This document shows positions 1 to 64,000 of a DNA stretch of 64,000 nt, in pieces. A program made the translations under genes and the position numbers. The DNA comes from Chloropicon primus (Eukaryota > Chlorophyta > Chloropicophyceae > Chloropicales > Chloropicaceae). Each line of letters starts with the position of its first letter. Within the stretch, counting starts at the first letter, position 1. The notes beneath the pieces were generated by a model that was not told where the DNA came from, ran no database searches, and worked only from the letters and a program-made list of their open reading frames with translations. The stretch covers positions 186,001 to 250,000 of the forward strand of contig CP060765.1 of assembly GCA_023205875.1 (NCBI GenBank), given 5' to 3'.

Positions 1-466
1 TCTGGCGAGTTCGAGAGCGAGTGAAGCGGGAGGGATCCGAGCCCGGGACCCTTTCCCTCGCGGCGTTCGCCGTCAAGACTCACGCGCCCGAGCAGGCTTG
101 CTTCCGGTGTGGCGGAGGTCAGCACCTGGTGTTCCTCCGCTTCTGGCCAAAGGCAATGGGCACTGTTCACGCATCATTCTTTATTCTTTACCCCTAGGTT
201 TCGCAATGTTGTACACTTTGTTTCATGTAAAACTTACCGCTCACAAAACCGTCGAGCAAGCGCGAAGCCCCCCCCCCCCATCTCTCCTCTCTCTCTCTCT
301 CCCGCGGGAGTGAAAGTGAGCAAGCGAGGGCTCTTTGGAAAGAGGAAGAAACAATGAACAATGCATCCCTCCGTCCCTCCCAATCCCTCCCAATCTCCCA
401 ATCCTCCCTCCCTCCTGGTCTCCTCCTCCTCCTCTTCTCCTCCAGCAGCAGCAGCAGCTTCGCTTG
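1..466. other. Leader region of the serine-hydrolase gene
   Basis: No gene is supported here. The stretch holds a short C run and CT tract near 270-300, a copy of the recurrent CTTTCGAAAG-type element at 324-345, and pyrimidine-rich sequence with CAG repeats just before the first ATG. Open frames in this stretch are short and biased in composition. Confidence 0.5.
324..345 (-). promoter_or_regulatory. Recurrent CTTTCGAAAG-type element
   Basis: Read on the minus strand this is CTCTTTCCAAAGAGCCCTCG, one mismatch from the palindromic core. It lies about 120 bp before the serine-hydrolase ATG, in reverse orientation relative to that gene, so it may instead serve a gene left of the window. Confidence 0.4.
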
Positions 467-1876
467 ATGAGGAGGACAGGAGGAGACGACGTGGACGCGA
501 TGGACCGCGGCGCCAGCGAGGGGGAGAGAAGCGAAGGCAAGGGCGACGGTCCCTTGAACCGTGCCCTCAATCGTCTCAAGGACGACGCCGCCTTCGACGA
601 CGTTCTCTCCAACCCCAAAGCGTTCCGGTTCCAATGCAGCCTCAAGACCTGCAACGAGGACGAGCACAATCCTCGTGGGATGATGCGTTACGTGTATCGG
701 TCCGATGAGGAGTACTTCTATCCGGCGAGCACAATCAAGGTGTGCGTAGCCGTCGCGGCGCTTCACGTCCTCCGCCGCGTGGTTTTCTCTTCGCCAGGAG
801 GTCTCCTCGGCCAGAGCTTCGGCATCACGACGCCACTCATCTTCCATTACCGAAGGAGGATGGAGGAAGGGAACTCGAGGGAGAAAGACATGGTCTGCAC
901 GATAGGGACGGATTCGACGAACAAGTCACAATGTCGGATCACCCTGGGTCACTTGATTCGTAACGTCTTCCTCGTGTCGAGTAACGGCGCGTTTAACCTG
1001 CTGCTCGACTTTGTGGGAAGGAAGACTCTGCAAAAGTTTCTGTCAAGCAAGTTGGGCTTCCGCCACTTTAGGATCGAGCACTACCTACAGGACTCTGGCT
1101 TTGGTCCCCAGCCAGGTGTGGTGGACGGTCTGCTTGGGGTGGAGGCGACAATGGCGACTGGTCTCGTGGTTGGGCTGCGGTGCGGGGACGCCTTTTGCGA
1201 TGGGATCGACTGCAGAGGCAACGCTTCTTCGCAGTTGGAGGGGGTCGTGGCCCCTCTGTTCGAGGATTGCTTGGTAGGGACCAGGCATGTGAGCACGGCG
1301 GGGGATTGGGATCGCGCTGCGGGGGATCGGGACGACGGGGGGAGGATCGTTCACGACGGTCCCAAGGACTTTAGGGGGAAGAATCAAGCGAGCTTAACAG
1401 AACTGCAGGACTTTCTTTCGCTTGTGGTTCGGCCCGATTTGCACGGCGCAGGGTCAGCCTCGGGTGAGATGCTGTCCTTCCCGGACAGGCTTTGGCTGAT
1501 GGAAGCGATGGCGAAGGGGACGACGGATTCCTTCAACCCCGAGTACCTCGAAGGGGGCGACGGAGAATACTTTTACGAGTGGAACAAATTCTTCCTCCCC
1601 GGTGTGAAGAAGGCGAGGGACTCGAGGGCGTTCAGAATCTACAACAAACTCGGGCAGGCATACGGCTTCAGCCTCGACAACGCTTACGTGTTCGACGTGG
1701 AGACAGGGAAATCCTTCTTCCTCGCAGCGTGCATTTACACGAATGCGAACGGAGTGCTCAACGACGGCGAGGGAAACTACGAGTACGAGCAGATCGCCCA
1801 CCCTTTCCTGGCCAGCCTAGCCGAAGCTTGCTGCCTGGAGCTCGGATTTGTAAACCACGATTCGTCTACGCACTAG
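467..1876 (+). CDS. Class A beta-lactamase-fold serine hydrolase
   Basis: A predicted protein of 469 residues with the three landmarks of class A beta-lactamase/DD-peptidase-fold enzymes in the right order. These are an SxxK nucleophile motif (YPASTIKV, Ser88/Lys91), an SxN-like motif (VSSNGAFN, about 171-173) and a late KxG motif (YNKLG, about 394-396). The family acylates on the serine; members include beta-lactamases and many hydrolases of unknown substrate, so substrate and physiological role cannot be read here. No clear signal peptide follows ATG 467; the start could also be ATG 500, and the upstream open frame has no ATG. The family is mainly bacterial, so ancient lateral transfer is possible, although base composition matches the neighbours. 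Prefoldin 2 follows on the same strand. Confidence 0.72.
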   Translation: MRRTGGDDVDAMDRGASEGERSEGKGDGPLNRALNRLKDDAAFDDVLSNPKAFRFQCSLKTCNEDEHNPRGMMRYVYRSDEEYFYPASTIKVCVAVAALHVLRRVVFSSPGGLLGQSFGITTPLIFHYRRRMEEGNSREKDMVCTIGTDSTNKSQCRITLGHLIRNVFLVSSNGAFNLLLDFVGRKTLQKFLSSKLGFRHFRIEHYLQDSGFGPQPGVVDGLLGVEATMATGLVVGLRCGDAFCDGIDCRGNASSQLEGVVAPLFEDCLVGTRHVSTAGDWDRAAGDRDDGGRIVHDGPKDFRGKNQASLTELQDFLSLVVRPDLHGAGSASGEMLSFPDRLWLMEAMAKGTTDSFNPEYLEGGDGEYFYEWNKFFLPGVKKARDSRAFRIYNKLGQAYGFSLDNAYVFDVETGKSFFLAACIYTNANGVLNDGEGNYEYEQIAHPFLASLAEACCLELGFVNHDSSTH

Positions 1877-2166
1877 ATCTCTCGTGGCATTGCATCACGT
1901 CCCATTCCATCACGCCCTCCATCGTCCATCCTCCTATCCATCCATCACCGCCTTTCTCCTCCTCCATCGTAAATCAAGTGAGGGCTGATTGGAAAGAGCA
2001 AGACAAGCAAGAGGAAGAGACCCTGGCGTAGCACACAGTCCCACACCCCCCGTCTTGCCCCCCTTTCCTCCATCACCCATCACCCATCCGTCCATCATCA
2101 CGCCCTCCATCCATCCCAAGCTCCTGGCTTCCCTCAGCAGCAGCTCTTCATGTTTTCAAAATCGAG

Positions 2167-2217
<51 letters not shown>

Positions 2218-2230
2218 CTACGCGTGAACC
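1877..2230. other. Intergenic region with GA tract
   Basis: It holds CCATC-rich low-complexity sequence, an element copy at 1975-1999 and a long (GA)n tract at about 2165-2213 that ends some 18 bp before the prefoldin 2 ATG. No additional gene is seen. Confidence 0.5.
1975..1999 (-). promoter_or_regulatory. Recurrent CTTTC-type element, reverse orientation
   Basis: The minus strand reads GCTCTTTCCAATCAGCCCTC followed by ACTTG. It matches the CTCTTTC half and the CCCTCACT half of the element but not the central palindrome. It is reversed relative to the downstream prefoldin gene. Confidence 0.3.
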
Positions 2231-3085: not shown

Positions 3086-6058
3086 TCAGCTTTTCAGAAG
3101 CTTGTGCATCCACTGGAGCTCCTCCCCCCCCTTGGTTCCGATGGTGTAGGTGATGTCGTCCGCTGGGATGTTCAAAGCGATTTTTCTGTGCCTGTGCTTG
3201 ACAGCAGGCTCTGCGATGATGAGCTTCATCCGGCTCAACTGAGTCACGCTGTTGCCTATCTCTGCTATTTGAGGGTCCTTGAGGGCGTCCTTGTTCGGAA
3301 GGACCGAAAGGGTTCGCCTGGCCCTCGTGACGAGGCTCTCCATGAGCGTCTCGACAGTGCCAGTCTTCCTGAGCTCCAAGGTCAGGAAGCCCAAGACAAT
3401 TTTGTCCAGCTCGGGCAAAGCTTCCAAAAGCTTCATGTGGCTCGCCCCAAACATCTCCTTGATGGCTCCATCGATGTGCTTGATCGTGACCTTGACCTCA
3501 TCCATCGCATTTTCAGACTCCGCCGTCGTCGTGGTTTTGCTCTGGCATTGCTCACAAGCGATTTCTGCTCCTCTTCTACAAAGCTCCAGCGCCCTTCTGA
3601 CGTCGCCCGACACGGCGGCAACCTTCCTCGCAACGTACTCGACGGCCTGCTTGTCAAAAAGACTCCCGCCCGAGTATCCCTGGAGGTCCTCCAATCGAGA
3701 TCTGATGATGCACTGAATCTGCTGCTGGGAGTAGGGCTGGAACGCGACTCTCTGCAGACCGAGCCTGCTCAACACCCTTGGCAAGAATCTTTCTGGTAGG
3801 TCGATGGTGTTAGCTATCCCAATGACGCTGAGGCAGCTGTCCCTGTGCATGGGCCACTCGAAAATGTTGTAAAGCACGCTTTGGGACCTCGTCACCAGCT
3901 GGTCCATCTCGTCCACCAACAAGATCGTGATAGGCTTTTGTGACTGACTCTTTGACCCCTGGCCCTTTTGGCCGCCCCTAGCTTCCTGGGAGGTGGTGGC
4001 GTCCCTGGAATCTTCGTCAAAGTACATTGCATTCAGTTCCTCCGCCGCCCTGCCTGGGGTCGTCTGCCAGCCCGTGAGCTGCTCCAGCAGGAACGAGTAC
4101 GCGTGCTGTGGCGTGGGAAGGCGCAGCGCATTCAGCTCCACGAATTGGAATGGCGGCACTTCCTGCTTTTCTGCCTTCTTCTTGAATCGCTTCATGACCT
4201 CCAGCACAGTCGCCGTCTTCCCAGTCCCGGGGACCCCGCTGATGTACAGGCACCTTCCTTGCTGTTGCGACATTTTCTTGTTCCCGCCGGAAAGGCAGCC
4301 GTGCACGAATTCCTCGATTTGCTGCATCTCGTCCTCTCTGCAAGGGATGTGCTTTGGCGTTGCACTCAGGGTGAGGGCGGCCCTCGCCCTCTCCAGAGGA
4401 CGCCTGCCTTTCGCGACCTTTCTCAAGATCGAGGGCACCTCCTCGGCACCGAGGGTCGCTATGCCCTTCCCAATCTTACTGTGGGAGGACAGAAGCATGC
4501 CGCCCTGCTCCATCTTTGCCCTGCCCCTGCTGGCCTCGGATTTCCATTTTGGCTGCCCCTTCTTCTTCAGGCGCAAGCCCACCAAGTAATCCTCGTCCCC
4601 TTCATCCTGGCCGCCATCAAAAAAGTTGTCCACCTCAAAGTCAGAGTCTTCCAAATCAGACAGGTTGTACTCCTCCGAATCGTCCTTGGCCGTGGTATGC
4701 CTCTCCTGCTTGTACCACCTCTGGAACCGCTTCCAGGCCGGGTCATAGTTGTACTCGCAGTAGAACACGTCGTCCCCCTCCGCGTCGGCGTTGGAGTACG
4801 CGCTTGGCGTGCAGACTTTGACACCCGTTTTCACCACGCACCGTGCCTCGTTCTCATCAAAGTGGTTGGTTCGGAACACCTCCCTCGCCCCGTGATGCTG
4901 CTGGCGCCCCGTGTGGGTATCCTCGGGGAGGTAGAACCACCTCAACGACATCATCATGACCTCCCCGCCCCCCTGCCCCGCTTTCCCCCTGCCCCTGTCG
5001 TCCGCGCCCTGTTTCTTCTCGTAGTACAGACCCTCGATCTTCACGAGGCCCAAGTGCTTGGCGAAAAAGTACTCCCTCGCAGTGCGAAGCTTGGAGTCCC
5101 CGCCCTCCATCATTGCCCCGCCCTCGCTGCACTGGGGGCACAGCCACTCGCCGGGCGGGATCTCCTTCAGAGGCGGGTCCAGGCACTCCATATGGTATCC
5201 CTTGAGGCACCCGTCGCACTCCAGCGTGACCTTGTCCGTGTGCGCTGAGCCGAGTCCGCAGATCTCGCAAGGATAGTCATCTTCTTCCCTCAGGTCAATC
5301 TCGGCCGTTCCCAGGTCAACGTACACGTGGTCTCCGACCTTCACGGTCATTCCGTTGACCTCCGCTTGCGCCACGTGGCAGCGGCCACCTCGACCCATTC
5401 CCGTTGGCACAGCGCTGCTCTTCGCGCTCAGTGCCTCTGGCTCCGGCTGCTTCCTCGGCCTCCCCCTTCCCCTCTTCGCGGTCGGTGCCTCTGGCTCCGG
5501 CTGCTTCCTCGGCCTCCCCCTCCCCCTCTTCGCGGTCGGTGCCTCTGGCTCCAGCTGCTTCCTCGGCCTCCCCCTTCCCCTCTTCGCGGTCGGTGCCTCT
5601 GGCTCCGGCTGCTTCCTCGGCCTCCCCCTTCCCCTCTTCGCTGTCGTCGTCGTCGCTGGTTCTGGCTCCGGCTGCTTCCTCGGCCTCCCCCTTCCCCTCT
5701 TCGCTGTCGTCGTCGTCGCTGGTTCTGGCTCCGGCTGCTTCCTCGGCCTCCCCCTCCCCCTCTTCGCTGTCGTCGTCGTCGCTGGTTCTGGCTCCGGCTG
5801 CTTCCTCGGCCTCCCCCTACCTCTCCTCGGGGGGGAGGGTTCCGGGACTGGAGTCTCAGCTTCCACCGCGCGTGAGGACGCTGCCCTGGAGCCCCTCCCC
5901 TTCCGGTCCACTTTCGCCTTCGCCTCGAGCATCATTATGGCTTCCGCCACGCTGAGCTTGGCCCCCTTGCTTCCCTTCCGCTGCCGATCCCTCGACGAGG
6001 ACGAGGACGACACCTTCAACCTCTTGCTCTCCTTGTAGACCCTCGTGATGCCACCCAT
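3086..6058 (-). CDS. ORC1: Origin recognition complex subunit 1 with AT-hooks, BAH and PHD
   Basis: Largest ORC subunit and ATPase that marks replication origins and loads MCM with CDC6. It is 990 residues from ATG 6058; the frame continues upstream only through a repeated promoter module that lacks an ATG. Order: basic N-terminus, seven RGRGRPRK AT-hooks (about residues 79-212), a BAH domain interrupted by a C4HC3 PHD finger (CEICGLGS..LECDGC..H..C..WLCPQC, about 263-311), an acidic linker, then the AAA+ core with Walker A GVPGTGKT (about 609) and Walker B ILLVDEMDQ (about 708), and a C-terminal winged helix. BAH with an embedded PHD is the green-plant ORC1 arrangement. The AT-hook array is unusual. 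The gene is intronless and convergent with prefoldin 2. Confidence 0.95.
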   Translation of the reverse strand: MGGITRVYKESKRLKVSSSSSSRDRQRKGSKGAKLSVAEAIMMLEAKAKVDRKGRGSRAASSRAVEAETPVPEPSPPRRGRGRPRKQPEPEPATTTTAKRGRGRPRKQPEPEPATTTTAKRGRGRPRKQPEPEPATTTTAKRGRGRPRKQPEPEAPTAKRGRGRPRKQLEPEAPTAKRGRGRPRKQPEPEAPTAKRGRGRPRKQPEPEALSAKSSAVPTGMGRGGRCHVAQAEVNGMTVKVGDHVYVDLGTAEIDLREEDDYPCEICGLGSAHTDKVTLECDGCLKGYHMECLDPPLKEIPPGEWLCPQCSEGGAMMEGGDSKLRTAREYFFAKHLGLVKIEGLYYEKKQGADDRGRGKAGQGGGEVMMMSLRWFYLPEDTHTGRQQHHGAREVFRTNHFDENEARCVVKTGVKVCTPSAYSNADAEGDDVFYCEYNYDPAWKRFQRWYKQERHTTAKDDSEEYNLSDLEDSDFEVDNFFDGGQDEGDEDYLVGLRLKKKGQPKWKSEASRGRAKMEQGGMLLSSHSKIGKGIATLGAEEVPSILRKVAKGRRPLERARAALTLSATPKHIPCREDEMQQIEEFVHGCLSGGNKKMSQQQGRCLYISGVPGTGKTATVLEVMKRFKKKAEKQEVPPFQFVELNALRLPTPQHAYSFLLEQLTGWQTTPGRAAEELNAMYFDEDSRDATTSQEARGGQKGQGSKSQSQKPITILLVDEMDQLVTRSQSVLYNIFEWPMHRDSCLSVIGIANTIDLPERFLPRVLSRLGLQRVAFQPYSQQQIQCIIRSRLEDLQGYSGGSLFDKQAVEYVARKVAAVSGDVRRALELCRRGAEIACEQCQSKTTTTAESENAMDEVKVTIKHIDGAIKEMFGASHMKLLEALPELDKIVLGFLTLELRKTGTVETLMESLVTRARRTLSVLPNKDALKDPQIAEIGNSVTQLSRMKLIIAEPAVKHRHRKIALNIPADDITYTIGTKGGEELQWMHKLLKS
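5440..5835 (-). repeat. Coding tandem repeat for seven AT-hooks in ORC1
   Basis: In-frame tandem units of about 54-66 bp each encode KRGRGRPRKQPEPE followed by PATTTTA or APTA. Three units are of the longer type and the rest shorter. Units are nearly identical at DNA level, which suggests recent expansion or homogenisation. Confidence 0.85.
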
Positions 6059-6088
6059 GTTGTTGCTGGCGTGGAATGAACTTGGCAA

Positions 6089-6210
6089 GTGAGGTACCGA
6101 TCGAAAGCTCGCGAGAAGGCCTTGCGGTTGGTTCACACCTCGCTCCCTTCCCCTCCCGTCCTCGCACCGCTCTTCCGCCCTTTGTGTTCGATCGCGATCG
6201 CGTCGATCGA
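6089..6210 (-). promoter_or_regulatory. Duplicated promoter module, ORC1 copy
   Basis: On the minus strand it reads AAGGCCTTCTCGCGAGC then TTTCGATCGGTACCTCACT, preceded by a purine-rich arm. The same module, nearly identical over about 110 bp, occurs twice at 25641-25939 before another gene. The GGTACC end lies about 40 bp before the ORC1 ATG. Confidence 0.6.
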
Positions 6211-6466
6211 TCGCGTTGTGTTTGTTCCCCCCGATCGATCGATCGATTTCGTGGTTTTTTTTTTTTTTTTTTTTTTTGGCGGGAACTCAAATGTGTGAGT
6301 ATAGTGTTATAGTTGCGATTAGTCTGAGATGACGGCGGGGAGTGACGAGGCACTACATAACTGAGAGTCAAGGAGCGACGAGGAGAGCGAAAGAGAGCGA
6401 CGTGTTGAGGTGAGTGTTGAAAAAAACGAGTGTTGGAGACGAAGACGAAAGAAAGCGTCTTCGTTT

Positions 6467-6490
6467 TCTCTTTCGAAAGAGCCCTCACTC
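6467..6490 (+). promoter_or_regulatory. Recurrent CTTTCGAAAG element (perfect palindrome)
   Basis: TCTCTTTCGAAAGAGCCCTC followed by ACTC. The 14-bp CTCTTTCGAAAGAG core is a perfect palindrome. It lies about 170 bp upstream of the aspartic protease ATG, in sense orientation. Confidence 0.55.
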
Positions 6491-6657
6491 AAAAAGTTTT
6501 GTTTCCTGTGGAGGAAATGGCTTGAAGGACAAGAACAAAACTGACAACGGAATGACGTTTTGTTTTTTCTTGTGACTTGTGGATGGATGGGTTTGGTTGC
6601 AGAAGAGAGAGAGAGAGAGAGAGAGGGAGAGCGAGAGAGGGGTTGAAGAAGGAGAAG

Positions 6658-8960: not shown

Positions 8961-9110
8961 CTTTCGATGAAGGAAGAGGAGACGAGATGAAACGAACATC
9001 GAAACGAGGGCGGACGAGGTGAGTGAGGAGGCGAGGTTTCGAGGGGCGTGTGCGACGAGACAGAGAGAGATGAGTGGAAGAGGCGGGTGACAAGAGGAAG
9101 AGTCACGCCT

Positions 9111-9141
9111 TGATCTTTCGAAAGACGCCTCGCTCGAGGAG
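9111..9141 (+). promoter_or_regulatory. Recurrent CTTTCGAAAG element, distal VPS4 copy
   Basis: TTGATCTTTCGAAAGACGCC (from 9110) followed by TCGCTCGAGGAG. Sense orientation, about 480 bp before the VPS4 ATG. Confidence 0.45.
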
Positions 9142-9290
9142 AATGGCGTGATGTGAAGGAATTGGGGACTAAAAACGTTTGGCTTTCTTTTTGATTTGGG
9201 GCTTCAAGTAGAGGTGAGTTTGGCGAGGCTCTGGCGTGAACCTTCGCGGGATAGGAGGGGTTTGCAGGTTGCAGACAGAATCTTCGTGTC

Positions 9291-9323
9291 TTGATCTTTC
9301 GACAGAGCCCTTGCTCGAGAGAG
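9291..9323 (+). promoter_or_regulatory. Recurrent CTTTCGAcAG element, proximal VPS4 copy
   Basis: TTGATCTTTCGACAGAGCCC followed by TTGCTCGAGAGAG. Sense orientation, about 300 bp before the VPS4 ATG. Confidence 0.5.
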
Positions 9324-9594
9324 TCTTCGGCGTATTGAGGAAGTTAGAACTGAAGCAAGTTTGTTGTTGCCTTTCCTCTGCCCCCTGACGAGCAGAAGGT
9401 TTGCCTGAGGGGACTGGGGCGAGAGCGAGGGGCGAGGGACGGAAGGAAAGGGTCTAGGCAGGAGGTCGAGAGTCTTCGGCGGGAGCTGCTTGGTACTTGG
9501 TGCGATCCCCTGTGTTGGATTGGTCCCTCTACTCTCTCTATATTTATTCTTCTGTGTGGTTTGGGTTGGGGCTCTCCTCGAGTGATCGGTCAGG

Positions 9595-11630: not shown

Positions 11631-11883
11631 CGTTTCGTTTCGTTTTCTTCTCTCGAGGGCCTCGCGCGTCAAACCCTTCGCCTGCCAGACGTCGAGGTGC
11701 GAAGAAGAATCCAAAGCGATCGCGCTCCCGATGCGAAGACCACGAACCGTCTCGTCGACACCCAACGCCCCGTCCCCTCTCGACCTCCCTCCCTTGCTCC
11801 CCTTCGCGAATCGCGTCCCTTCGTCACACCCTCTCCTTCGACCTATTGCCTCCTTTCCCGAGCGCCAAATGACACGACCGAGT

Positions 11884-11907
11884 GCTCGTTCGAAAGATCT
11901 CGAGACG
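11884..11907 (-). promoter_or_regulatory. Recurrent element, CTCGAGATCTTTCGAA form
   Basis: The minus strand reads CGTCTCGAGATCTTTCGAAC. It joins the CTCGAGA and CTTTCGAA halves in the arrangement also seen at 59079 and 25482. It is oriented with the Yippee gene, about 395 bp before its ATG. Confidence 0.45.
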
Positions 11908-12257
11908 TATCTTCCGTTCGTGTCCCCTGTTTCCGCACTCGTCGCCGTCCCCGCCTCCCTCGTCGCGCCAAACTCCTTCCCCTCTCAAGGTCCTCCCCCG
12001 TGGTTGAAAAAAAATATATATTATCAAACGTGGACGAGAGCTCTTGAGGATCAGACCAACAAGAGTTAAAATGTTCTCGCTAAGGCGCAGGGAGAGAGAG
12101 AGAGAGACAGACAGAGAGAGAGGAGAGAGAAGAGGAGGAGGTCCGTGTCACCTATCACGTGGACTTGAAACCTTCTCTCTTTTGGACGCTTCGAAGAGCT
12201 GAATGGATGGATGGAGGCCAGGCCAGGACCCAAGGAGGAGATGGATCGCGATTATTC

Positions 12258-12293: not shown

Positions 12294-12867
12294 CTGTGTG
12301 GTGTGTTTTTTCTCTTTTCTCTTTTGGCTCGCTCGCACGTGCGTGGGGGAGATCAGAGTTTTTTCCTTCGAGGTCAAGCATCGAGGTGGCCTCCTTCCGC
12401 TTCCACGATGTAGGTGGTGGGGTTGATGGACGTGACAGTCGTGGCGGTGGTGACCACCACCATCCCGGTTCGTCTTCATCGTGCTCGACCATCCCCCTGC
12501 ACTGCGCTGGTCCCTCCGAGCAAACAAAAACCAGCAACATCCACCATCACTATGTCTGTCAACACCTTTCAAGTTGCTCTTCGCAGAGAGAAAGTCTTCC
12601 GCCCTTTGGAAGAGCGATGCGATCCTCAGGGCAGGCGGAGGGACAGAGCCTCCCCGTCCCCGTCCCTTCGTCTCGTCTCGTCTCCTTGCGCGAGGATGGT
12701 CTTCTTTTTTCGGCCGGCCGAAAATCCGTTGAAATTTGAAAAAAAGTTCAGAGGGGTCAGAACCCAGGAGCTCGGAGAGGAAGGGGAGGACCATCCTTTG
12801 GTTGAAGCAGAGGCCGAGGCGGTGGGGACCAAGGGCAGAGGGTTGGACCAAGGGAAGAAGCAGGTCT

Positions 12868-12894
12868 TCCTCTTTCGAAAGATCCCTCGGTTGA
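12868..12894 (+). promoter_or_regulatory. Recurrent CTTTCGAAAG element
   Basis: TCCTCTTTCGAAAGATCCCT followed by CGGTTGA. Sense orientation, about 200 bp before the LRR/IQ gene ATG. Confidence 0.5.
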
Positions 12895-13085
12895 CTGGGG
12901 AAGGTTGCTGGAAGAGAGGGCACGAGAAGGGAGAGAGGTTGTGTGCGGAGAAGAGGGCAAAGGCAGGGACCTTGGGAGAGGGAGGCAACAGGAGGAGGAG
13001 GAGGAGCGAGAGGTTTTCGTTGAAAGCGCGTCCAAGATGTTCCAAGATGAGAATCTTTGGCAAGGTTGACGAGGGAGAGTGAGGT

Positions 13086-19344: not shown

Positions 19345-20213
19345 GACACTTTGAATGATAAAACTAATGCCAAGGGAGAGCAACGTCGTTTCAGTGTCTC
19401 AAAACTTCATCCGAGCGGCATTCTCTTCGAGTGAAAGGTCTATCGAAAGACAACGATGCGAGGATTCCGATCCAAGCGCCACTTCTCCTCGCCTCACGAC
19501 GAAGCGGTCAACGTCGAGGCCCTCTTCCGTCACAGAACTCACCTTCGCCCTGCCCACCACAAGTGAGCTCCATCAATCTGATCCAAAAGGAAGGAAAAGT
19601 CTGGAAGAGAAGGAGGAAGGTGATGATGATGGATGATGGAGACGAAGAGGAGAGGATGGAGGCAAGGGATGGTGGTGGAGGCAGGTGGTGCGGGGGGCTC
19701 CTTGATCTCTTCGGCTTCCTCCTCGCCATGCTCTCTATCTCTTCCCAAAGACCCATCACTTGATGATGGACATAGAGTCACAACTTTCAGAGGACCTTGA
19801 AGAAGGTGGTGCCTTGCGTGGTTGTCCTCAAGGTGACGGATCAGGAGGAGGAGAAGGAGAACAGGTGATGATTGAGACGAGAAGAGAGAAGTGTAAAGTA
19901 ATGAGAGGGGGTTGGGAGGAGGGTCGCAGAATTTTCTTCTTCTTCTTTGCCTTTGCCTTTGTGGCAAGTCTTCGAACTGCTTGCTGGACCTTTGGCGTTT
20001 GGCGCTTGGAGGGTGAGTGTGAGGCGCGTGTCCCTCACTCGAATAGCAGGACGCGTGCCCGAGAGAAGAAAGAGCTGTCGATGAAGAACTACCGAAAGCA
20101 ACTTCAAACGTTTTTGTTTCATCGATTCACAAGTGTGACGTCGTCGTTTGGTTTACAGAATTCCATCCATCCTTACCAAGAGTGAGGACTTGTTCACTTG
20201 ACCCAGACTCTCT
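19345..20213. other. Intergenic region upstream of ProRS
   Basis: About 870 bp. It holds the ProRS element at 19423-19452, GGAGGA/GATGAT-rich low-complexity sequence and a short TTCTTC run near 19935. I see no supported gene; open frames here look like composition artefacts. Confidence 0.45.
19423..19452 (-). promoter_or_regulatory. Recurrent CTTTCGATAG element
   Basis: The minus strand reads TTGTCTTTCGATAGACCTTT followed by CACTCGAAGAG. It is in sense orientation for ProRS, about 80-110 bp before its ATG. Confidence 0.5.
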
Positions 20214-25329: not shown

Positions 25330-25481
25330 ATTCTTCTTTGGACATCGTCAGAAGAACTTTGTCTTGGGAAAGCACTGTCCAACTGTAACAGCAAATCAAA
25401 TGAAACGAGAACACGTTGTTTTGCTTGGCCGTTTTCTGCTTCTTGGCAGGCTGGCCGGTCTCATCTTTCTCAGCATGATGT

Positions 25482-25505
25482 CCCATCGAAAGGTCTCGAG
25501 ACATA
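25482..25505 (-). promoter_or_regulatory. Recurrent element, CTCGAGACCTTTCGATGG form
   Basis: The minus strand reads TGTCTCGAGACCTTTCGATG followed by GGACATC. It points away from the downstream plus-strand gene and toward no annotated gene, unless the tiny basic minus-strand frame beginning near 25478 is real. Confidence 0.4.
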
Positions 25506-25640
25506 GATTCCTTTCCCACTCTCCTCCTCCGCCATCTTCGCCGTCCTCTCCCTCGTACCGCATCGTCATCAAAACGCACTCCACCTCCTCGGTCCTTTCC
25601 CGCCCAATTTTTTTTTCATGCCGTAGGGGGAAGAAGCGCG

Positions 25641-25762
25641 AATCGATCGCGATCGCACAAACGCAAAGGGCGGGAGAGAGGTGCGAGGACGGGAGGGGAG
25701 GGAGCGAGGTGTGAACCAACCGCAAGGCCTTCTCGCGAGCTTTCGATCGGTACCTCACTTGC
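25641..25762 (+). promoter_or_regulatory. Duplicated promoter module, distal copy
   Basis: ATCGATCGCGATCG patch, purine-rich arm, then AAGGCCTTCTCGCGAGC and TTTCGATCGGTACCTCACTT. It is near-identical to the ORC1 upstream module, including the CGATCG patch, and is in sense orientation for the gene at 25995. Confidence 0.6.
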
Positions 25763-25840
25763 TGGGATTGCGCTTGCGGTTTCATTGTTGGTACGAAGGA
25801 AGGAGAACTGGATCGTTCGCGGAGAGAGCGGAACGCGAAC

Positions 25841-25939
25841 GCCGAGGGCGGAAGAGAGGTTCGAGAACGGGAGGGGAAGGGAGCGAGGTGTGGACCAAGC
25901 GCAAGGCCTTCTCGCGAGCTTTCGATCGGTACCTCACTC
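25841..25939 (+). promoter_or_regulatory. Duplicated promoter module, proximal copy
   Basis: A second copy of the module, slightly more diverged in the purine-rich arm but with an identical AAGGCCTTCTCGCGAGC / TTTCGATCGGTACCTCACT core. Its GGTACC lies about 65 bp before ATG 25995. Confidence 0.6.
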
Positions 25940-25994
25940 GACCCATTTGGCTCTGCGGTTGGAGTGGTGTCGTCCAGTTGGCATGGATTGATTG

Positions 25995-48770: not shown

Positions 48771-49225
48771 AGCATTCCTAAGCCGATCCTAATCCTAAGC
48801 CGATCCTAGAGAGCATTCCCAAATTTTGCCTTCTTTGACATCGAAGGGCTCCGCAAATGGCAAAAAAAAAGTGCTTCCAATGAGATTTGAACTCATGACC
48901 TTCACCTCGATGTTTTTCATTCTAACGTCATAGAGCGAAAATACTAAAGTGACGCTACTACCAACTGAGCTATGGAAGCAACAACACATGTTTTCTACTC
49001 GAAATTTTACATATATATAACCCACGCCAAGTTGGGGAAGGGGGGACTCGAAGTAGGTTTCTCTGTCACCCGAAGACGACGACGCCGACGACGCCGACGA
49101 CGCAAGTGAAGTGAAGTGAAGTGAAGTGAAGTGGTTGGCATCCGGTCTTGCCCTCCTCGCGTGCATACGTGATTCCGTGGCCCCTTTCTGCTCGCGTTGC
49201 CACGACGACGACGACGACGCACTCC

Positions 49226-54314: not shown

Positions 54315-55196
54315 CTTGCTTGCTTCAAAACTTCAGGACACAAAGTCAAGCAAAGTCCGTACCAATCCTCCGAGTGACCTCCCCCACCCCCAAAAAAGTC
54401 CAAAGATAAACAAACACCCTCTCGTCACCTTCAAGGCCTCTGGGCCATGGGCACACACCCCTCCCCGTCCTGCTTGGAAAAACCAAAAACACACAAAACT
54501 TTGTTTTCAGCGCTCACCCTTCCCCTGTAGCGAACCAATTCTCTCGAGGGAGGGCTCTTTCGAAAGAGGGTGAGACAATCCTTCGACCTAGAACCCTTCC
54601 CTTGGTCCCACGCCTCATCTTGGACACATTATTCACGACCCAAAACCCTTACCTCTTGTCTCCTTTTGCCTCGAGTGCCGACTCTCTCGTTCTCTCCACC
54701 TCGGGCTTCGGTCAATTCTTTCTCCTCAACAAGGGTTTACTGCACGGATGACCTGGTTTACAATTTTGTAATCCACGTTTCGAATATGTACACTATAATG
54801 AAGTGTTTACACCATTAAATAGACACAAACGGGGGACTTTTTACGAGGCAACCCCCGAACAAAGTAACGCTTGGTTTCGTCACGTCACTCTCGGCTCAGC
54901 GAATGCATGCATAGGGTGGAGCATCGGGCTTTTTCATCGTCTATGCCTCTTGTCTCCGTCACCGGTACTGCACTCAAGCCGCCGCCTGTCACCAACCAGC
55001 AATCAATCGTATTGTCCTTGTCCCTCCTTTCTTCTGTTGTCTGGGACTGTGAGAGCCTCTCACTGAGGTGAGCACCCTTCTTGTTGCATAGGCCCTAGGT
55101 TGCACCTGGGGGAGGGTGTGTGGCTTCCCTTCGGTTCTTCGAGGAAGAGGGGCATTCGGAGCACCTCTCCCCCTCCTCCCCCTCATCGAGACTACA
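54315..55196. other. Divergent region, ODAD3 / F-box-ankyrin gene
   Basis: It contains the ODAD3 element (54541-54570) and an AT-richer stretch around 54750-54850. No gene is supported. Confidence 0.45.
54541..54570 (-). promoter_or_regulatory. Recurrent CTTTCGAAAG element (perfect palindrome)
   Basis: The minus strand reads CCTCTTTCGAAAGAGCCCTC followed by CCTCGAGAG, the best full match in the window: core palindrome, CCCTC and CTCGAGAG. Sense orientation for ODAD3. Confidence 0.6.
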
Positions 55197-56123: not shown

Positions 56124-56616
56124 CACAATCAGACTCGTCTCTACTCTATATTGTTTGCCTCACACCGTCGTCGGCGTGCAACCTTTGTAATGTCTAAAAC
56201 TCCTCTCCTGTTCCACCTCTCCCCCCCCAAAAAAGACAAAAGCTTGGCATGAGGCATCAGCAAGCTTGCGTGCACAACCAGATGCAGCGCTAGGGCTGGT
56301 GCCATTGTCCTCCACTGCTGTCTCCCTCCCTTCCCTCCAAGGGAACATGATCTCATCACTCATCACTTTGAAGCAGCTTCGAGCTCCTCCCAGCAGCTGC
56401 TTCAATTGAATTGAATCTGGTCAATCGATCGATCGGTCGAGAGAGAGAGAGAGAGAGGAGCGGCGAGGAGGGCGGAGGTTCGAGGGCGCGTGGACACAGG
56501 AGAGAGGGAGGAGGGTATTCAGTCAGAAGAGTCTTCTCTTCGTCTTTCTGTGGACCCCTCGGTTGAAGGAAACGACGGAGTGGCGAGGATTTCACAAACG
56601 AAAGAGGTGAAGTGTT

Positions 56617-56659
<43 letters not shown>

Positions 56660-57919: not shown

Positions 57920-58989
57920 TAAAATATTTCGGAGAGAGCATCCTTGAACGAAGTCGGGTGGAGCCCAAAGGTCTGTCGCAGCAGATGGACATCCATGGAA
58001 GCGTCCAGGGGGGATTTCACGTGGCTCGGCCTGTCCGCTTCGAGCACAGAATCGATGCCATAGCCCCTGTGTGTACAGAGAGCCTGGGGAGGAAAGAAGT
58101 GAGAACGGGGTCAGAAGGAGGGGAGCGTTGATCTGGGGCAATCTTGCGACCCGACCCACCTTCGCCATATCAGCCCTCGAGAGCCTTTCTGGGCCCCCGA
58201 GATTATAGATGTTCGCCACTCTGGCAGGAGCTTGAAGATAGAGAAGGCCAGGAGGTCATCAAATCGCGCAAAGAGACAGTCAGTCCAATTCTCTGACTGA
58301 TGGAGACCTCCAAGCTCACCTGTCACGCCGTTTTCGATTCTCGCGATGATGATCCTAACTAGCTTCACTATGTCCATGACGTAGACGGGAGACCTGAACT
58401 CGTTACCAAAAAAATCGACCTTCTCCCCGGCGCCGAGCGCCTCATCCATCCACTGCAGGAAGAGGTTCCTCCCAACTTCCTTCCCCCTCCCGTAAATGAT
58501 GCTGCTCCGAAATATGGCGTGGTTTGGGTAGCGGGACACGATGAAGTCCTCCGCTTCCTTCTTGGTCTCGCCATAAGCGTTGACAGGCCCCGGCTCGTCC
58601 GCTTCCGTGTAGAACGACCGAGACCCGTCGTACACGTGGTCGGTGCTGAGGTGTATCAGGAAGGGCCTTCCTTCGCACCGAGACAACAGGCAATCGTTAA
58701 CGAGAGTGGTCGGAACGTTCACAGATCTCGACCTCTCCCTCTCCTCCTCGCACACCATCGGCTGCGAAATCGCGGCGCAGTTGACAACCACTTGGGGCTC
58801 CCCAAAGTCCGAAACCATGTCTTCCAAGCCCTCCCCGGTGCAAAAGTCCACTTTATACTTGCTCCCGCCCATCGATTCGACAACCTTGCCGCCTGTGTTG
58901 TACGTGAATCCAACTTGGTGCTCCCGCGACAGCGCTTCTACGAGGTACTGACCCAAGTACCCCGAACCACCCGCCACCAGAACCTTCAT
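57920..58989 (-). CDS. RmlD/MAT2B-like NAD(P)-dependent reductase (extended SDR)
   Basis: Extended short-chain dehydrogenase of the dTDP-4-dehydrorhamnose reductase / MAT2B group; it could be a sugar-nucleotide reductase or the regulatory beta subunit of methionine adenosyltransferase, which cannot be told apart here. Three exons (58989-58320, 58230-58160 and about 58083-57920; introns of about 89 and 76 bp, GTGAGC..AG and GTGGGT..CAG) encode about 301 residues. The Rossmann motif GGSGYLGQYL is at the start, catalytic S/T and YxxxK appear as HLSTDHVYDG and YGETKKEAE, and splicing joins NGVTA to PARVANIYNLGGPERLSRAD, the family's late motif, followed by GIDSVLEADRPSHVKSPLDA. Unspliced, the frame runs into non-homologous sequence. 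Confidence 0.85.
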
Positions 58990-59078
58990 CCCGCCTGCTT
59001 CAGTCCTTCCCTCACCACGAATCAATCAATCTCACTCAAACGGCGTCCCCTCGGTCAATCCTTTGGCGATGCCGTCAA

Positions 59079-59110
59079 CCAAGGTACCAATGGAAAGATC
59101 TCGAGACGCA
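59079..59110 (-). promoter_or_regulatory. Recurrent element, GGTACC form (proximal)
   Basis: The minus strand reads GCGTCTCGAGATCTTTCCAT followed by TGGTACCTTGG. It shares CTCGAGA/CTTTC order with 11884 and the GGTACC end with the ORC1 module. Sense orientation, about 100 bp before the reductase ATG. Confidence 0.5.
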
Positions 59111-59249
59111 CTCTCGTCCGGTACCCTTGTCTTGCGCTGCCTCTGTCGTCCTCGTCGCCACCGTCCTCACGAACGCCTTCCCTCACCACGAATCAATCAA
59201 TCTCACTCAAACGGCGTCCCCTCGGTCAATCCTTTGGCGATGCCGTCAA

Positions 59250-59281
59250 CCAAGGTACCAATGGAAAGATCTCGAGACGCA
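59250..59281 (-). promoter_or_regulatory. Recurrent element, GGTACC form (distal, duplicated)
   Basis: Second copy of the element at 59079, 171 bp further from the reductase gene, generated by the tandem duplication. Confidence 0.45.
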
Positions 59282-59332
59282 CTCTCGTGCGGTACCCTTG
59301 TCTTGCGCTTCCTCTGTCGTCCTCGTCGTTAA

Positions 59333-59793: not shown

Positions 59794-59832
<39 letters not shown>

Positions 59833-61411: not shown

Positions 61412-61550
61412 CGTGCTGCGCTTCTAGAAGCCTCTTCCTACCCAAATCAAATCAAATCACACAGAGAGGCATGGCACGGCATGGCATGAAAACACGTCAG
61501 TGGGTGTCCAGAGGAAAAGAAAAAATCTTCGCCACGTCGAGGCCAAGCAC

Positions 61551-61576
61551 GTGCGAGGGCTCTGGAGAAAGAGGAG
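61551..61576 (-). promoter_or_regulatory. Recurrent element, LHCA3 proximal copy
   Basis: The minus strand reads CTCCTCTTTCTCCAGAGCCC followed by TCGCAC. It retains CTCTTTC, AGAGCCCTCG. Sense orientation, about 140-165 bp before the LHCA3 ATG. Confidence 0.45.
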
Positions 61577-61750
61577 GGCGAGAGGGTTCCACCGGTGGAA
61601 GAAGTTAAAACCCTTCGCACGAGGAGACAGACCCTCCTCCTCGTCAACTTCCCACCTCCTCTCTCTCTCTCTCTCTCTGTCTTGGAGCAAAACCAAATCC
61701 ACAACAGAGAGAGAGGAGAGGCAAAAGCGTGGGTCGAAATGGGTCGGAAT

Positions 61751-61775
61751 GGGGGTCTTTGGAAAGAGCGTGAGG
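61751..61775 (-). promoter_or_regulatory. Recurrent element, LHCA3 distal copy
   Basis: The minus strand reads CGCTCTTTCCAAAGACCCCC. One mismatch in the central palindrome. Sense orientation, about 350 bp upstream. Confidence 0.4.
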
Positions 61776-62054
61776 AGGCGGATCGATCTGTTTGCCGTTT
61801 GACCGCCTCCGTCGTCGTCCTCGTGTCAAGAAACCCGCTCGAAACTCACCTCTTCTCGTCAGTCGCCCGCAGAACGCAAGGAGTCGATCTGAGATCTAGA
61901 TCTCAAAAATGCTCTCTTCGTCTAAGAAGGGATTTCTACACGGAGGGACAAGACGATTCACTTCAAATTTGAAATAATAGATATTTCCAAAACTCGAATC
62001 TGTAGGTTTCCCCTTGTAAGGGCGAGATTCCCTAAATTGAAATCTTCCATTGGC

Positions 62055-62426
62055 CAATCGACAACCGATTCACCTTATCTTTGGGAGAAGGAACGTTGGT
62101 GACACCTGAGAGGGGACCCTGGACACTCCCCTAGACCTTGGCCTTGGAGGAGGATGTCCAGGAGGAGGATGGATCCATACCACCACCATGATCATCTGAT
62201 CCCAGTCGCCCCGCCTCTCCCTCTTTGGTCTTCCTTCAATCCAATTGACAACCGATTCACCTTATCTTTGGGAGAAGGAACGTTGGTGACACCTGAGAGG
62301 GGACCCTGGACACTCCCCTAGACCTTGGCCTTGGAGGAGGATGTCCAGGAGGAGGATGGATCCATACCACCACCATGATCATCTGATCCCAGTCACCCCG
62401 CCTCTCCCTCTTTGGTCTTCCTTCAT
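62055..62426. repeat. 187-bp tandem duplication, two copies
   Basis: Offset 187 bp (CAACCGATTCACCTTATC at 62062 and 62249). The copies are almost identical through CTCTTTGGTCTTCCTTC. The second copy ends about 40 bp before the stop codon of the INSIG-like gene, whose 3' region it extends. Confidence 0.9.
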
Positions 62427-62465
62427 CGTCCGGGCACATCAGTGTTCCACCACTGCGTACTCCGG

Positions 62466-63380
62466 TCACGTCAGAGCGACGGGCGACTTGGAACCCCCCC
62501 CCCCGCCCTCGTCCTCGTCGTCGTCCTTCCTCCCGTCCTTCCGGTCCTGCAGGCAGGCCGCGAGGGAGAAGAGGAAAGGGTGGTAGAACACGTAGCACAT
62601 CGGCACCCAGCTTGGGAAGCCGGAGAACGCGGGGTGCTGCACGATCCCGTTGCCGACGCTCGAGCCCGGCGCGAGGAAAGTGTCAGCCCTCGGGTAGGAC
62701 CAGAGGTGGAGCTGGCCGATCAGGAGGCACTCGATCAGGGGGGCCGCGACTCCCGCAAAGACGCTGAGGCCCAGGGACTTGAGGGAGTTCACCCTGTCCT
62801 CCCGCTTGCTGCCCTTCCCCGCGAGACGCTTGTCGAACGAAAGCCAGTTGGCGCAAGCGAGCAGGGCCAAGACGGCCCTGATGGTCTTGTAGGGCACGTA
62901 GTTCTCGTACAGGATCGCGCTCACCTGGAGGAGCATCCCGAGGACGGCGAACCTGACGAGGACCTCGCTCGGCCTCGTGACCCCATCCCCATCCCCCCGG
63001 CAGAGGAGGAGGTAAAGGCCCCCGTCACACGCGTAGAACGCCGCGAGTAGGGCCGGGACCCACACGCTCGTCTGGGCCCCCATGGGGAGGGCGACGCCGC
63101 CCGCAGCCGGGTTGTACGTGAGCACGCCGGCCCTCCCGTGGATGAGATCGAGCGCAGTGCCGACGGTGGCCCCGAACACCGCCAAACCGCCGAGAGGGAG
63201 GCGCTTCAGCCTCGCCGCACCGAGGGAGGGAGAGGTCTCCCCCTCCTGACCTCCCCCGCCACCCCTGGCCGCCCCAGCCACAGATCCCCGCCATCGACCC
63301 CTAGCCCTCCCGATCTTCACCACCGCACCCCTCCGCCCCGGACCTCTACTGAGTACTGACCCGGTCCCACCCTGCAGCAT
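62466..63380 (-). CDS. Multi-pass membrane protein, INSIG-like
   Basis: A 304-residue protein with about six hydrophobic segments: LGGLAVFGATVGTALDLI, VWVPALLAAFYACDGGLYLL, VLVRFAVLGMLLQVSAILYE, IRAVLALLACANWLSF, LGLSVFAGVAAPLIECLLIG and WVPMCYVFYHPFLFSLAAC. The order and spacing (short loops, an SFDKR after the fourth helix like the TFDRS of insulin-induced gene proteins) suggest the INSIG family, ER proteins that regulate sterol sensing, but identity is weak and plant-type relatives have no proven role. The Gly/Arg-rich N-terminus could also be an organelle transit peptide. ATG 63380 is the first ATG in frame. The C-terminus is acidic and Gly-rich. Confidence 0.5.
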   Translation of the reverse strand: MLQGGTGSVLSRGPGRRGAVVKIGRARGRWRGSVAGAARGGGGGQEGETSPSLGAARLKRLPLGGLAVFGATVGTALDLIHGRAGVLTYNPAAGGVALPMGAQTSVWVPALLAAFYACDGGLYLLLCRGDGDGVTRPSEVLVRFAVLGMLLQVSAILYENYVPYKTIRAVLALLACANWLSFDKRLAGKGSKREDRVNSLKSLGLSVFAGVAAPLIECLLIGQLHLWSYPRADTFLAPGSSVGNGIVQHPAFSGFPSWVPMCYVFYHPFLFSLAACLQDRKDGRKDDDEDEGGGGGSKSPVALT

Positions 63381-64000
63381 GACAAAACAAAAACACGATA
63401 AGTTTCTCTTCCTGGCGTCGATGCGGCCAACGAAGGGTTCAACGGAGTGCTTTCGATAAGCACATCTTTCGTGCGTTTCGTTCACCTCCACACCCCGTCC
63501 TCCTCGACGCCCGTGGCAAGGGCTTGGTTCCCAAGGCCGTCCTCCCCTCCTCGTCGTAGATCGAGCGTCACAAGTTCAGTCGCCTCCAAGTCAATCCTCC
63601 ACCAAATGGCGCAAACTTGGTATCGACAGAAAGATCAGAGAGAGAACTATCGCGATCTTGGGCGCCCGCGCCTGTCATCCCACCACCCGAACCTCTGCCC
63701 GTCCTTTTCGTGGTCGCCGCTCTGTTGCCGTTACACGCCTACCCCGCGTCAAGTGTACACTTTGTGTACACCCGTTTCTCACCCCCGGTGGTCAAAGGCA
63801 GAGGCCGTTGATCCCAAGGAAAGGAAATCAAGGTGGAGTGAGGTGGAGGCCTAGGAGCACGACAGGGAGGCCAAGAACACGCAGGTTCCGGGGTCGAAGG
63901 CGTGGCCTGGAAGAAGCAGAAGCAGACTAGAGTGGTGGAGAACCGAAAATTCGATCCAGCTTTGCTTTTGGTTTCGCTTGTTGGGGTCAAAGGTGAGGTG
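63381..64000. other. Upstream region at the right edge
   Basis: It contains an element-like sequence at 63617-63644 for the INSIG-like gene. No gene is supported to the end of the window. Confidence 0.4.
63617..63644 (-). promoter_or_regulatory. Recurrent element, diverged GGTACC form
   Basis: The minus strand reads CTCTCTGATCTTTCTGTCGA followed by TACCAAG. It resembles the CTCGAGATCTTTC..GGTACC form. Sense orientation, about 240-265 bp before the INSIG-like ATG. Confidence 0.35.

Follow-up and report, generated by a model that had tools for sequence, protein, structure and literature searches.

A long, gene-oriented DNA element with regular spacing near promoters of Chloropicon primus, and its possible link to the first nucleosome

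The genome of Chloropicon primus RCC138, a tiny marine green alga, contains about 4,700 copies (extrapolated from 260 kb) of an asymmetric element of ~75 bp with the consensus GGAAGCGTCGTCTCGTGATCTTTCGAAAGAGCCCTCGCTCGAAAGGAATGGCGCCCTGGTGAGGATTTGA. The evidence below supports a general, gene-oriented and promoter-proximal element. What might it do? The reading that we prefer, with a probability of roughly 0.47, sees it as an orientation-specific cis element that works at the DNA level and belongs to the first nucleosome-sized territory 3' of the promoter; this is suggested by sequence comparisons.

The consensus alignment has an information content of 53.5 bits. The motif CTTTC in the left half is 98–99% invariant whereas the matching bases of the right half are 55–94% conserved, so the palindrome that was central to the original prediction is not a conserved feature. 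The element had also been drawn too short (26 bp), and its spacing and splicing rules were overlooked. The five palindromic cores CTTTCGAAAG are indeed present, at 6470, 9115, 12872, 21100 and 54557 of the window (the whole 64-kb stretch of DNA that was analysed), but the one at 21100 scores less than 4 bits on our PWM. The estimate of about 20 sites was close: a 54-column PWM finds 21 in the window at 4 bits or more. Chance as the origin of such matches is excluded. At 5 bits or more the PWM, whose training set included the very copies scored, among others, found 69 non-overlapping sites (71 raw) in 260 kb and none on either strand of the reversed sequence; at 0 bits or more the counts were 79 and 3. 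HMM matches at E ≤ 0.1 numbered 66, and 0 in the reversed sequence, and a 23-mer with up to three mismatches matched 518 times genome-wide against 0 for the reversed pattern.

Both the non-coding location and the gene-directed orientation that had been predicted were recovered among 62 HMM copies in C12:1-260000: 57 lie outside predicted ORFs, though these make up 68% of the sequence, and in 54 the asymmetric side points toward an ORF on the same strand (the other eight face an ORF on the opposite strand). The statement that most genes have the element was too broad, a same-strand copy being present within 500 bp upstream of 36 of the 115 predicted ORFs. The genes concerned are functionally unrelated, as had been noted, for the Pfam domains behind the copies are varied (nine of ten window ORFs had a Pfam match) and include PHD/BAH/AAA, aspartyl protease, VPS4, ProRS, ODAD1-like coiled coil, SPRY and RmlD/epimerase products. 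We take the PHD/BAH/AAA protein (ORF 3086-6058) to be ORC1-like; the name 'ASH2-like' for the SPRY protein comes from the original prediction.

Neighboring copies keep preferred distances. Between tandem copies the distance is 180.5 ± 4.7 bp (74 distinct pairs among 100 listed of 111 places; searched range 163–193 bp), and ~180 bases is a typical nucleosome spacing. Head-to-head copies mostly keep 250–281 bp, and copies that converge are very rare overall. Among the 62 HMM copies of C12:1-260000, all 12 same-strand pairs closer than 1 kb are spaced 171–191 bp, head-to-head copies are 253–281 bp apart in nine pairs and then 346, 371 bp or more, and there are no convergent pairs. Genome-wide, 111 same-strand pairs of matches fall at 163–193 bp against 8 in the reversed-pattern control, with no excess at 78–108 bp (1, control 2), 132–162 bp (3, control 5) or 194–224 bp (12, control 14); as both strands were counted, each perfect palindrome enters twice. 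Genome-wide, head-to-head pairs number 21 at 250–280 bp against 1 in the control, and 3 (control 2) and 7 (control 3) in the adjoining ranges of 219–249 and 281–311 bp. Whole arrays occur at some loci, for instance with gaps of 176/260/177 bp (L082) and 177/266/179 bp (L077). For 25 measurable tandem pairs, the two units agree at only 25–40 positions of their downstream 85-bp flanks. The 47 copies that have an ORF within 500 bp form 11 tandem pairs and 4 head-to-head pairs in the preferred ranges. When placed at random but anchored to genes (two sets, 2,000 draws each), they formed on average 0.9–1.2 tandem pairs (maximum 4–7) and 0.55–0.59 head-to-head pairs (maximum 4–6). Since the observed 4 lies within the extreme of these draws, it is the genome-wide counts that carry the head-to-head rule.

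The copies in the window are as follows (core centres follow the strand in brackets; detection was by HMM and PWM unless given, and products are named from Pfam). The copies at 6053..6127 (minus, 6103), 45 bp upstream of the ATG of the PHD/BAH/AAA gene, and at 6450..6524 (plus, 6474), 109 bp upstream of ORF 6583-8190 (aspartyl protease), stand head-to-head at 371 bp. The VPS4 gene has a tandem pair, of which the upstream member, 9095..9169 (plus, 9119; HMM), is preceded at 100 bp by a 5' splice-like site and the downstream member, 9276..9350 (plus, 9300; HMM), follows 181 bp later. Next come 11842..11916 (minus, 11892) and 12852..12926 (plus, 12876), the latter 210 bp upstream of ORF 13086-17561 (LRR/IQ protein). 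The copy at 19395..19469 (minus, 19445; HMM), 101 bp upstream of ORF 17650-19344 (ProRS), has a weak head-to-head partner 300 bp away at 19721..19795 (plus, 19745; PWM 7.3 bits). Another weak copy, 25438..25512 (minus, 25488; PWM 6.7 bits), is head-to-head at 256 bp with the upstream member of a tandem pair belonging to ORF 25995-28436; the members, 25720..25794 (plus, 25744) and 25899..25973 (plus, 25923), are 179 bp apart, and since the units look near-identical by eye they probably arose by recent tandem duplication. At 54512..54586 (minus, 54562; HMM) a copy lies 248 bp upstream of ORF 52758-54314 (ODAD1-like). The copy 121 bp upstream of ORF 56669-57859 (SPRY), at 56524..56598 (plus, 56548), is 109 bp from a weak one at 56389..56463 (minus, 56439; PWM 13.8 bits), which is off the spacing rule. 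ORF 58111-58989 (RmlD/epimerase) has a tandem pair with a downstream member at 59043..59117 (minus, 59093) and, 171 bp from it, an upstream member at 59214..59288 (minus, 59264), the units again near-identical by eye. The copy at 61712..61786 (minus, 61762; PWM 19.8 bits) is 195 bp from a weak one on the same strand at 61517..61591 (minus, 61567; PWM 10.3 bits), and the last weak copy is at 63579..63653 (minus, 63629; PWM 13.1 bits). Three sites had been listed as exceptions to the orientation rule: the 25488 copy; 288..362 (minus, 338; HMM, PWM 33.7 bits), which points left to the 3' end of the adjoining gene; and 1942..2016 (minus, 1992; HMM, PWM 15.1 bits), which is 116 bp past the end of ORF 467-1876 and faces that ORF.

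Where does the element lie relative to the start of transcription? Of 136 leading copies, 38 (~28%; controls 0, 1, 4 and 4) have a 5' splice-like site 70–112 bp upstream. Within just the contiguous 260 kb the figure is 12 of 46 leading copies (controls 0, 1, 2 and 1), and at loci picked without regard to splicing it is 21 of 60 (controls 0, 0, 2 and 2). Branch-point words (p = 1e-9) and T-rich tracts (p = 7e-12) co-occur with these donors, usually 3' of the element. In the window, donor-like sites and rule-chosen acceptors flank the copies at 9300 (86 bp upstream, 96 bp downstream), 19445 (97 and 97 bp) and 54562 (90 and 90 bp). The 9300 copy would thus sit in a 182-bp 5' intron, a length that is not independent, as acceptors were picked by our own rule in a limited zone. 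If the donors are real, transcription of those genes must start 5' of the element, which would then be part of a 5' intron. A promoter-like composition signature, namely an AT peak and a change to a purine-rich coding strand, is found ~110–140 bp 5' of the element. The purine switch (-140 to -110) and the AT maximum (-130 bin) appear in both the spliced (33) and unspliced (92) classes; the maximum is modest (0.51–0.57) and, in 20-bp bins, broad outside head-to-head promoters. Upstream ATGs are depleted weakly and unevenly. Together, donors and composition make the element look downstream of the start site, which we infer to be ~110–130 bp upstream of it.

The element is therefore probably not a core promoter, although it had been proposed as a core-promoter or initiation element. 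One could still imagine a core promoter that spans the start site, perhaps with the TC[A/G] ~12 bp past the core centre as initiator, tandem copies then being twin starts one nucleosome apart. Such an element would be oriented and gene-proximal, the footprint of TFIID is similar in length to ~75 bp, and in a few genes the predicted ATG follows within 45–60 bp, so that, if these ATGs are right, transcription there can start no further downstream. This view is improbable given the donors upstream of the 38 leading copies and, for unspliced genes, the composition boundary common to both classes; moreover, spliced single copies have no second copy upstream that could act as promoter (0 of 13 above 0 bits). 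An RNA-level element of the 5' leader or first intron, serving splicing, export or translation, is a still poorer candidate. The element is strand-specific and apparently transcribed, but there is no consensus fold and there are no compensatory changes of note (in a low-powered test, real and shuffled alignments both giving zero), splice signals surround it in some genes only, and the 180-bp and mirror 250–281-bp spacings across promoters have no evident RNA reason. An Rfam search of the 64-kb window matched only a tRNA, away from the element.

A further possibility is that the ~182-bp module acts, or once acted, as a copying unit of the introner kind, perhaps old mobile introns inserting in nucleosome linkers; copies would have landed or duplicated just 3' of promoters, most now being without splice sites and the core retained or exapted. 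We consider this origin unlikely, though several facts fit it. Where spliced, the module has roughly the length of one unit, and tandem units can meet in an AG|GT junction. The element's 53.5 bits are far beyond the need of a simple site, the addressing of ~4,700 sites requiring by arithmetic ~13 bits. Dispersed copies share the upstream flank in 27 of 176 rows and the downstream flank in 19 of 176 (one pair being a single site fetched twice), and two near-unit-size patches are not visibly gene-wide: 178 bp in L074/L081 (86.5%) and 120 bp (93%; -96 to +19) in the window copies 6103/25744. Paralogous genes also differ by one unit: L032 and C12:31591, which have a single copy each, can be aligned to either copy of the tandem locus L056, at offsets near 0 and near 183 bp. 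In Micromonas pusilla, introners with a linker bias are described (PMC9860276); its text portrays intron-sized units tied to nucleosome spacing, and Chloropicon has some unit-sized copying, but most Chloropicon copies share the core only, are mostly unspliced and have a position bound to the promoter. Among the copies followed, the minority with shared flanks appear to be mostly paralogous genes. For C12:31591, L032, L053, L056, L061, L066 and, in part, L079 and L086, the similarity spans hundreds of bases and continues for several hundred bp downstream, as it should in paralogs that carry their own 5' regions. For most copies the flanks are near random: among 151 copies (after removing 22 with cores at least 80% alike) the 60 most similar pairs had flank identities of 0.46/0.38 against 0.42/0.36 in random pairs. 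Finally, 98 of 136 leading copies have no donor, and the gene-directed orientation and fixed promoter distance also count against this origin.

On the first-nucleosome reading, a sequence-specific protein, or two, would read the element and set or mark the +1 (and +2) nucleosome, and the bound factor may support initiation upstream. The 180-bp step would be the nucleosome repeat, and the 250–281-bp head-to-head step would reflect two +1 nucleosomes with some 100–135 bp free of nucleosomes between them. That only some genes apparently splice the stretch out suggests that it is read as DNA and not as mature mRNA. Besides the spacings, donors and composition, the low flank similarity of tandem units and the one-unit difference between paralogs speak for this reading. 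Several observations count against this reading. One ordinary factor does not explain 53.5 bits where ~13 would do; around the element, 10-bp AT-dinucleotide periodicity does not exceed that found in other places; the element is AT-richer than its flanks, as would befit a linker more than a dyad; and pairs at 109, 346 and 371 bp break the rule. Also on this side are the presence of copies at only 36 of 115 ORFs, the 8 of 62 facing an opposite-strand ORF, and the duplication of some copies as part of a larger stretch. A bolder form, which we put forward more tentatively, is that the element is a 75-bp oriented tag with a dedicated reader factor, placed once per nucleosome (+1, sometimes +2) after thousands of promoters, and that gain and loss between paralogs, as well as 5' intron birth, proceed by this same nucleosome-sized unit.

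How does this compare with known systems? The yeast general regulatory factors Reb1, Abf1 and Rap1 bind ~10-bp sites that lie upstream of the start, within the nucleosome-free region. By analogy, the many promoter sites and the nucleosome phasing seen there make a possible parallel, but the Chloropicon element is ~75 bp and apparently downstream of the start. Introns are reportedly gained by tandem duplication of AGGT-containing DNA; adjacent AG|GT junctions, unit-length introns at part of the loci and paralogs one unit apart recall this, whereas none of 13 spliced single copies tested had a trace of a second unit upstream. The Arabidopsis intron-mediated enhancement motif TTNGATYTG, as presented in PMC6760150, acts from transcribed DNA 3' of the start, in intron or exon, independently of splicing and only near the promoter. 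The Chloropicon element may be alike in position, apparently lying in transcribed DNA 3' of the start with or without splicing. It differs in being ~75 bp long, usually in one or two copies with a fixed ~180-bp step, whereas TTNGATYTG has 9 bp and was assayed as several copies together (PMC6760150). In prasinophytes, PMC12695648 (which cites Huff and Zilberman 2014) describes post-TSS nucleosomes and linker 6mA/5mC phasing. Both cases would concern nucleosome-scale order of the first nucleosomes after the start in small green algae, but the order in that account is seen as base modification, without a long conserved sequence; its main text does not name Chloropicon.

If our reading is true, one could ask directly which of the two, DNA sequence or promoter machinery, sets the +1 nucleosome. 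Should the 180-bp step be the nucleosome repeat, the first post-promoter nucleosomes would carry a long, sequence-specific and directional signal, a way of positioning nucleosomes that to our knowledge is not seen in other genomes. Promoter architecture may also be tied to intron birth, given that the spliced stretch and the spacing unit are of about equal length. In practical terms, the element would give a rule by which 5' ends can be located and expression constructs designed in this alga, which is of ecological importance and whose chromatin layout would be as if written into the DNA sequence.

An iterated profile HMM seeded with the motif of the original prediction gave 59 hits at E≤0.01 in the first 260 kb of contig C12 (C12:1-260000), against no hit even at E≤0.1 when that sequence was reversed; the 65 hits at E≤0.05 became 62 copies once those within 40 bp of a better hit were removed. 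A PWM of 54 columns, built from 173 distinct copies, those scored here among them, found 69 non-overlapping sites of at least 5 bits on the two strands of the same 260 kb and 0 in the reversed sequence, which extrapolates to about 4,700 copies in the genome. Genome-wide searches covered 17,584,162 bp in 20 contigs, where a 23-mer with up to three mismatches had 518 matches and its reversed pattern none. Detailed work was done on C12:1-260000, which contains the window (C12:186001-250000), and on loci elsewhere in the same genome. These comprised 8 + 20 loci out of 60 listed exact strong matches, plus 40 more picked for strong paired cores by tandem and head-to-head searches, samples that are unsuited to estimating copy or pair frequency. 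At two loci, L062 and L069, the HMM failed to find the expected partner copy. The element was not found in collections of viral contigs or of other genome contigs.

Relative to the core centre, conservation spans about -23 to +50 and amounts to 53.5 bits. The element had been predicted to be palindromic, but its two half sites differ, with 98–99% invariance on the left and only loose conservation on the right. This unequal constraint rules out the palindrome as the functional unit and points to an asymmetric conserved entity. An RNA hairpin was rejected as well, since no noteworthy compensatory change was seen; alifold gave zero for real and shuffled alignments alike and was hence uninformative.

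Although ORFs (gene models picked by a simple hexamer score) make up 68% of C12:1-260000, 57 of the 62 copies lie outside them. The next ORF is on the copy's own strand in 54 cases and on the other in 8, and where an ATG lies within 500 bp (47 copies) its median distance from the element is 143 bp. A same-strand copy occurs within 500 bp upstream of 36 of 115 ORFs, as against 14 with an opposite-strand copy in that zone and 5 with a same-strand copy within 500 bp past the 3' end. The window genes that follow copies have mixed functions (10 tested of 36 ORFs of at least 200 aa). A minority of copies point at the 3' end of an adjacent gene (window 338, 1992 and 25488; C12 76558, 126866 and 149448). 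Several of these lie about 115–160 or 315–320 bp from the stop, several resemble CTTTCCAA...CCCTCACTTGA, and they may be part of antisense or bidirectional promoters. By eye, many copies have at +24 to +36 an ATG followed within 3–5 codons by TGA, a possible minimal upstream reading frame. Two other features of the window are an ORF at 467-1873 that matches Beta-lactamase2 (PF13354), in an algal nuclear genome, and a minus-strand tRNA gene at 48872-48979, of which 108 bases matched a 71-position model and which probably contains an intron.

Spacing between copies is strongly patterned. The 62 HMM copies include 12 same-strand pairs under 1 kb, each with a spacing of 171–191 bp. Nine head-to-head pairs are at 253–281 bp and others at 346 and 371 bp; a further head-to-head class in the 260 kb, at 438–468 bp, is roughly the sum of the tandem and head-to-head steps. 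Convergent pairs are absent within 1 kb among HMM copies, and PWM sites at 60–580 bp include three such pairs if ≥0 bits is accepted but none if ≥5 bits is required. Genome-wide, same-strand pairs of strong cores (reversed-pattern control in brackets) number 1 (2) at 78–108 bp, 3 (5) at 132–162 bp, 111 (8) at 163–193 bp and 12 (14) at 194–224 bp, the tandem searches counting perfect-palindrome cores on both strands. Head-to-head pairs number 3 (2) at 219–249 bp, 21 (1) at 250–280 bp and 7 (3) at 281–311 bp. The tandem step averages 180.5 bp (SD 4.7, range 165–193 within the 163–193 searched; 74 distinct pairs from 100 of the 111 places). Complete arrays occur, for example with gaps of 176/260/177 at locus L082, and one pair in the window breaks the spacing, at 109 bp. 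When only the 47 copies that have an ORF within 500 bp are considered, the preferred ranges hold 11 pairs in tandem and 4 head to head; positions drawn at random relative to those ORFs gave a tandem mean of about 1 (maximum 7) and a head-to-head mean of 0.6 (maximum 6). By this gene-anchored test alone, the tandem spacing is therefore clear and the head-to-head spacing is not. Apparently recent tandem duplications with a 171–180-bp unit, in up to three copies, are seen at L029 and at window 25744/25923 and 59093/59264.

Splice-like signals flank a fraction of the copies. A donor matrix written by hand from the general MAG|GTRAGT consensus predicts a 5' splice-like site at -112 to -70 in 38 of 136 leading copies, compared with 0, 1, 4 and 4 in four control zones of equal width. 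The contiguous 260 kb alone gives 12 of 46 (controls 0, 1, 2, 1), and the 40 paired-core loci give 21 of 60 (controls 0, 0, 2, 2). Downstream of the element, a branch-point-like word is present in 27 of the 38 copies with a donor versus 15 of the 98 without, and a T-rich tract in 32 versus 20, the word, the T-rich rule and their zones having been set after the sequences were inspected. With the acceptor taken as the first [TCA]AG past the most T-rich 20 bp starting at +50 to +119 (found in 38 of 41), the predicted introns straddle the element with a median length of 182.5 bp, a value limited by the rule and only weakly independent. Downstream tandem copies repeat the donor position in 8 of 38 cases, at -88 to -80. 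Are spliced single copies remnants of tandem pairs? No relict upstream copy was found behind any of 13, and this idea was dropped. Where tandem units meet at C12 152442 and 145567, an acceptor-like end runs directly into a donor (CAG|GTAAGT), which would make a zero-length exon resembling a recursive splice site.

Where would transcription start? Composition around leading copies switches from pyrimidine- to purine-rich between -140 and -110 and is most AT-rich in the -130 bin. Both hold for spliced (33) and for unspliced (92) copies, two classes that leave out 11 of the 136. The purine switch is present in head-to-head and in other promoters separately; those other promoters have a broad AT peak. 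The composition boundary is as far from the element as half the usual head-to-head spacing (about 131 bp), and together these suggest a promoter midpoint about 130 bp upstream, from which the element would be transcribed. That the element is itself a core promoter or initiator spanning the start site thus seems improbable. ATG depletion near the element is too weak to help place the start site, and a 10-bp periodicity of AT dinucleotides is no stronger around the element than elsewhere. A TATA box was sought and rejected: none of 76 leading copies has TATAAA anywhere from -300 to +200. The words CGATCG and GATCGCGATC are over-represented at about -120 to -80, near the putative promoter, and may be a second promoter motif.

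Another explanation is that a module of about 182 bp is, or was, a dispersed copying unit like an introner. Some units have indeed been copied. Flanks are held in common with a dispersed copy in 27 of 176 rows upstream and 19 of 176 downstream, with all rows kept and one site present twice (L005 and L069); a separate flank comparison left out 22 of 173 copies at least 80% alike in the core. Among 12 copies followed, the sharers are mostly paralogous genes. A related set on several chromosomes (C12:31591, L032, L053, L056, L061, L066 and partly L079 and L086) stays similar for hundreds of bases, far into the downstream sequence, and several of its alignments end upstream between about -90 and -180. 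Single-copy paralogs can be aligned to either copy of a tandem member, with an offset close to 0 in one case and close to 183 bp in the other, which indicates that one unit was gained or lost between relatives. Likeness confined to a patch is seen for L074/L081 (178 bp) and window 6103/25744 (120 bp). The paralogs L032 and C12:31591, compared with L056, L053, L061 and L066, carry one or two units each, and several of the alignments end upstream near -126 to -145, close to the putative start site, as would those of a retrocopied transcript. We nevertheless consider dispersed copying an unlikely explanation.

Beyond the observed sequence, orientation, spacing and splice-signal position, our leading interpretation, with a probability of roughly 0.47, is an oriented DNA-level element in the first nucleosome-sized territory downstream of the promoter. 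The 180-bp step would be the nucleosome repeat, the element would mark the territory of the +1 and sometimes the +2 nucleosome, and a protein would read it as DNA. A reading as DNA is favoured by two observations: splicing apparently removes the element in some genes while others retain it, and tandem spacing is conserved in 25 pairs of units whose flanks are not. If the element lay at the dyad, with +1 dyads 262 bp apart, a plausible gap of about 115 bp would remain; placement in the linker would suit an element that is, as found, AT-richer than its flanks. A search for a candidate multi-finger reader gave at least five C2H2 matches in at least three places; three of the matches share a frame. 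There was also one MT-A70 match, with no tie to the element.

The main texts of two Chloropicon genome papers (one of them PMC12301720) contain neither "promoter" nor "palindrome". The first uses "motif" a single time, for protein motifs; the second (PMC12301720) does not use it, nor does it mention UTR, transcription start or nucleosome, but it refers to existing RNA-seq of C. primus. No element of this form appeared among the titles listed for Chloropicon, prasinophyte core promoters, Ostreococcus nucleosome or promoter motifs, the core sequence, linker methylation or nucleosome-repeat motifs. Nearest in behaviour among the listed literature is the Arabidopsis TTNGATYTG motif, which acts downstream and independently of splicing (PMC6760150). 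Nearest in setting is the phasing of nucleosomes after the transcription start in prasinophytes (PMC12695648). More tentatively, the element may be an oriented tag, one per nucleosome (+1, sometimes +2), and the same unit may be what is gained or lost between paralogs and in the birth of 5' introns.
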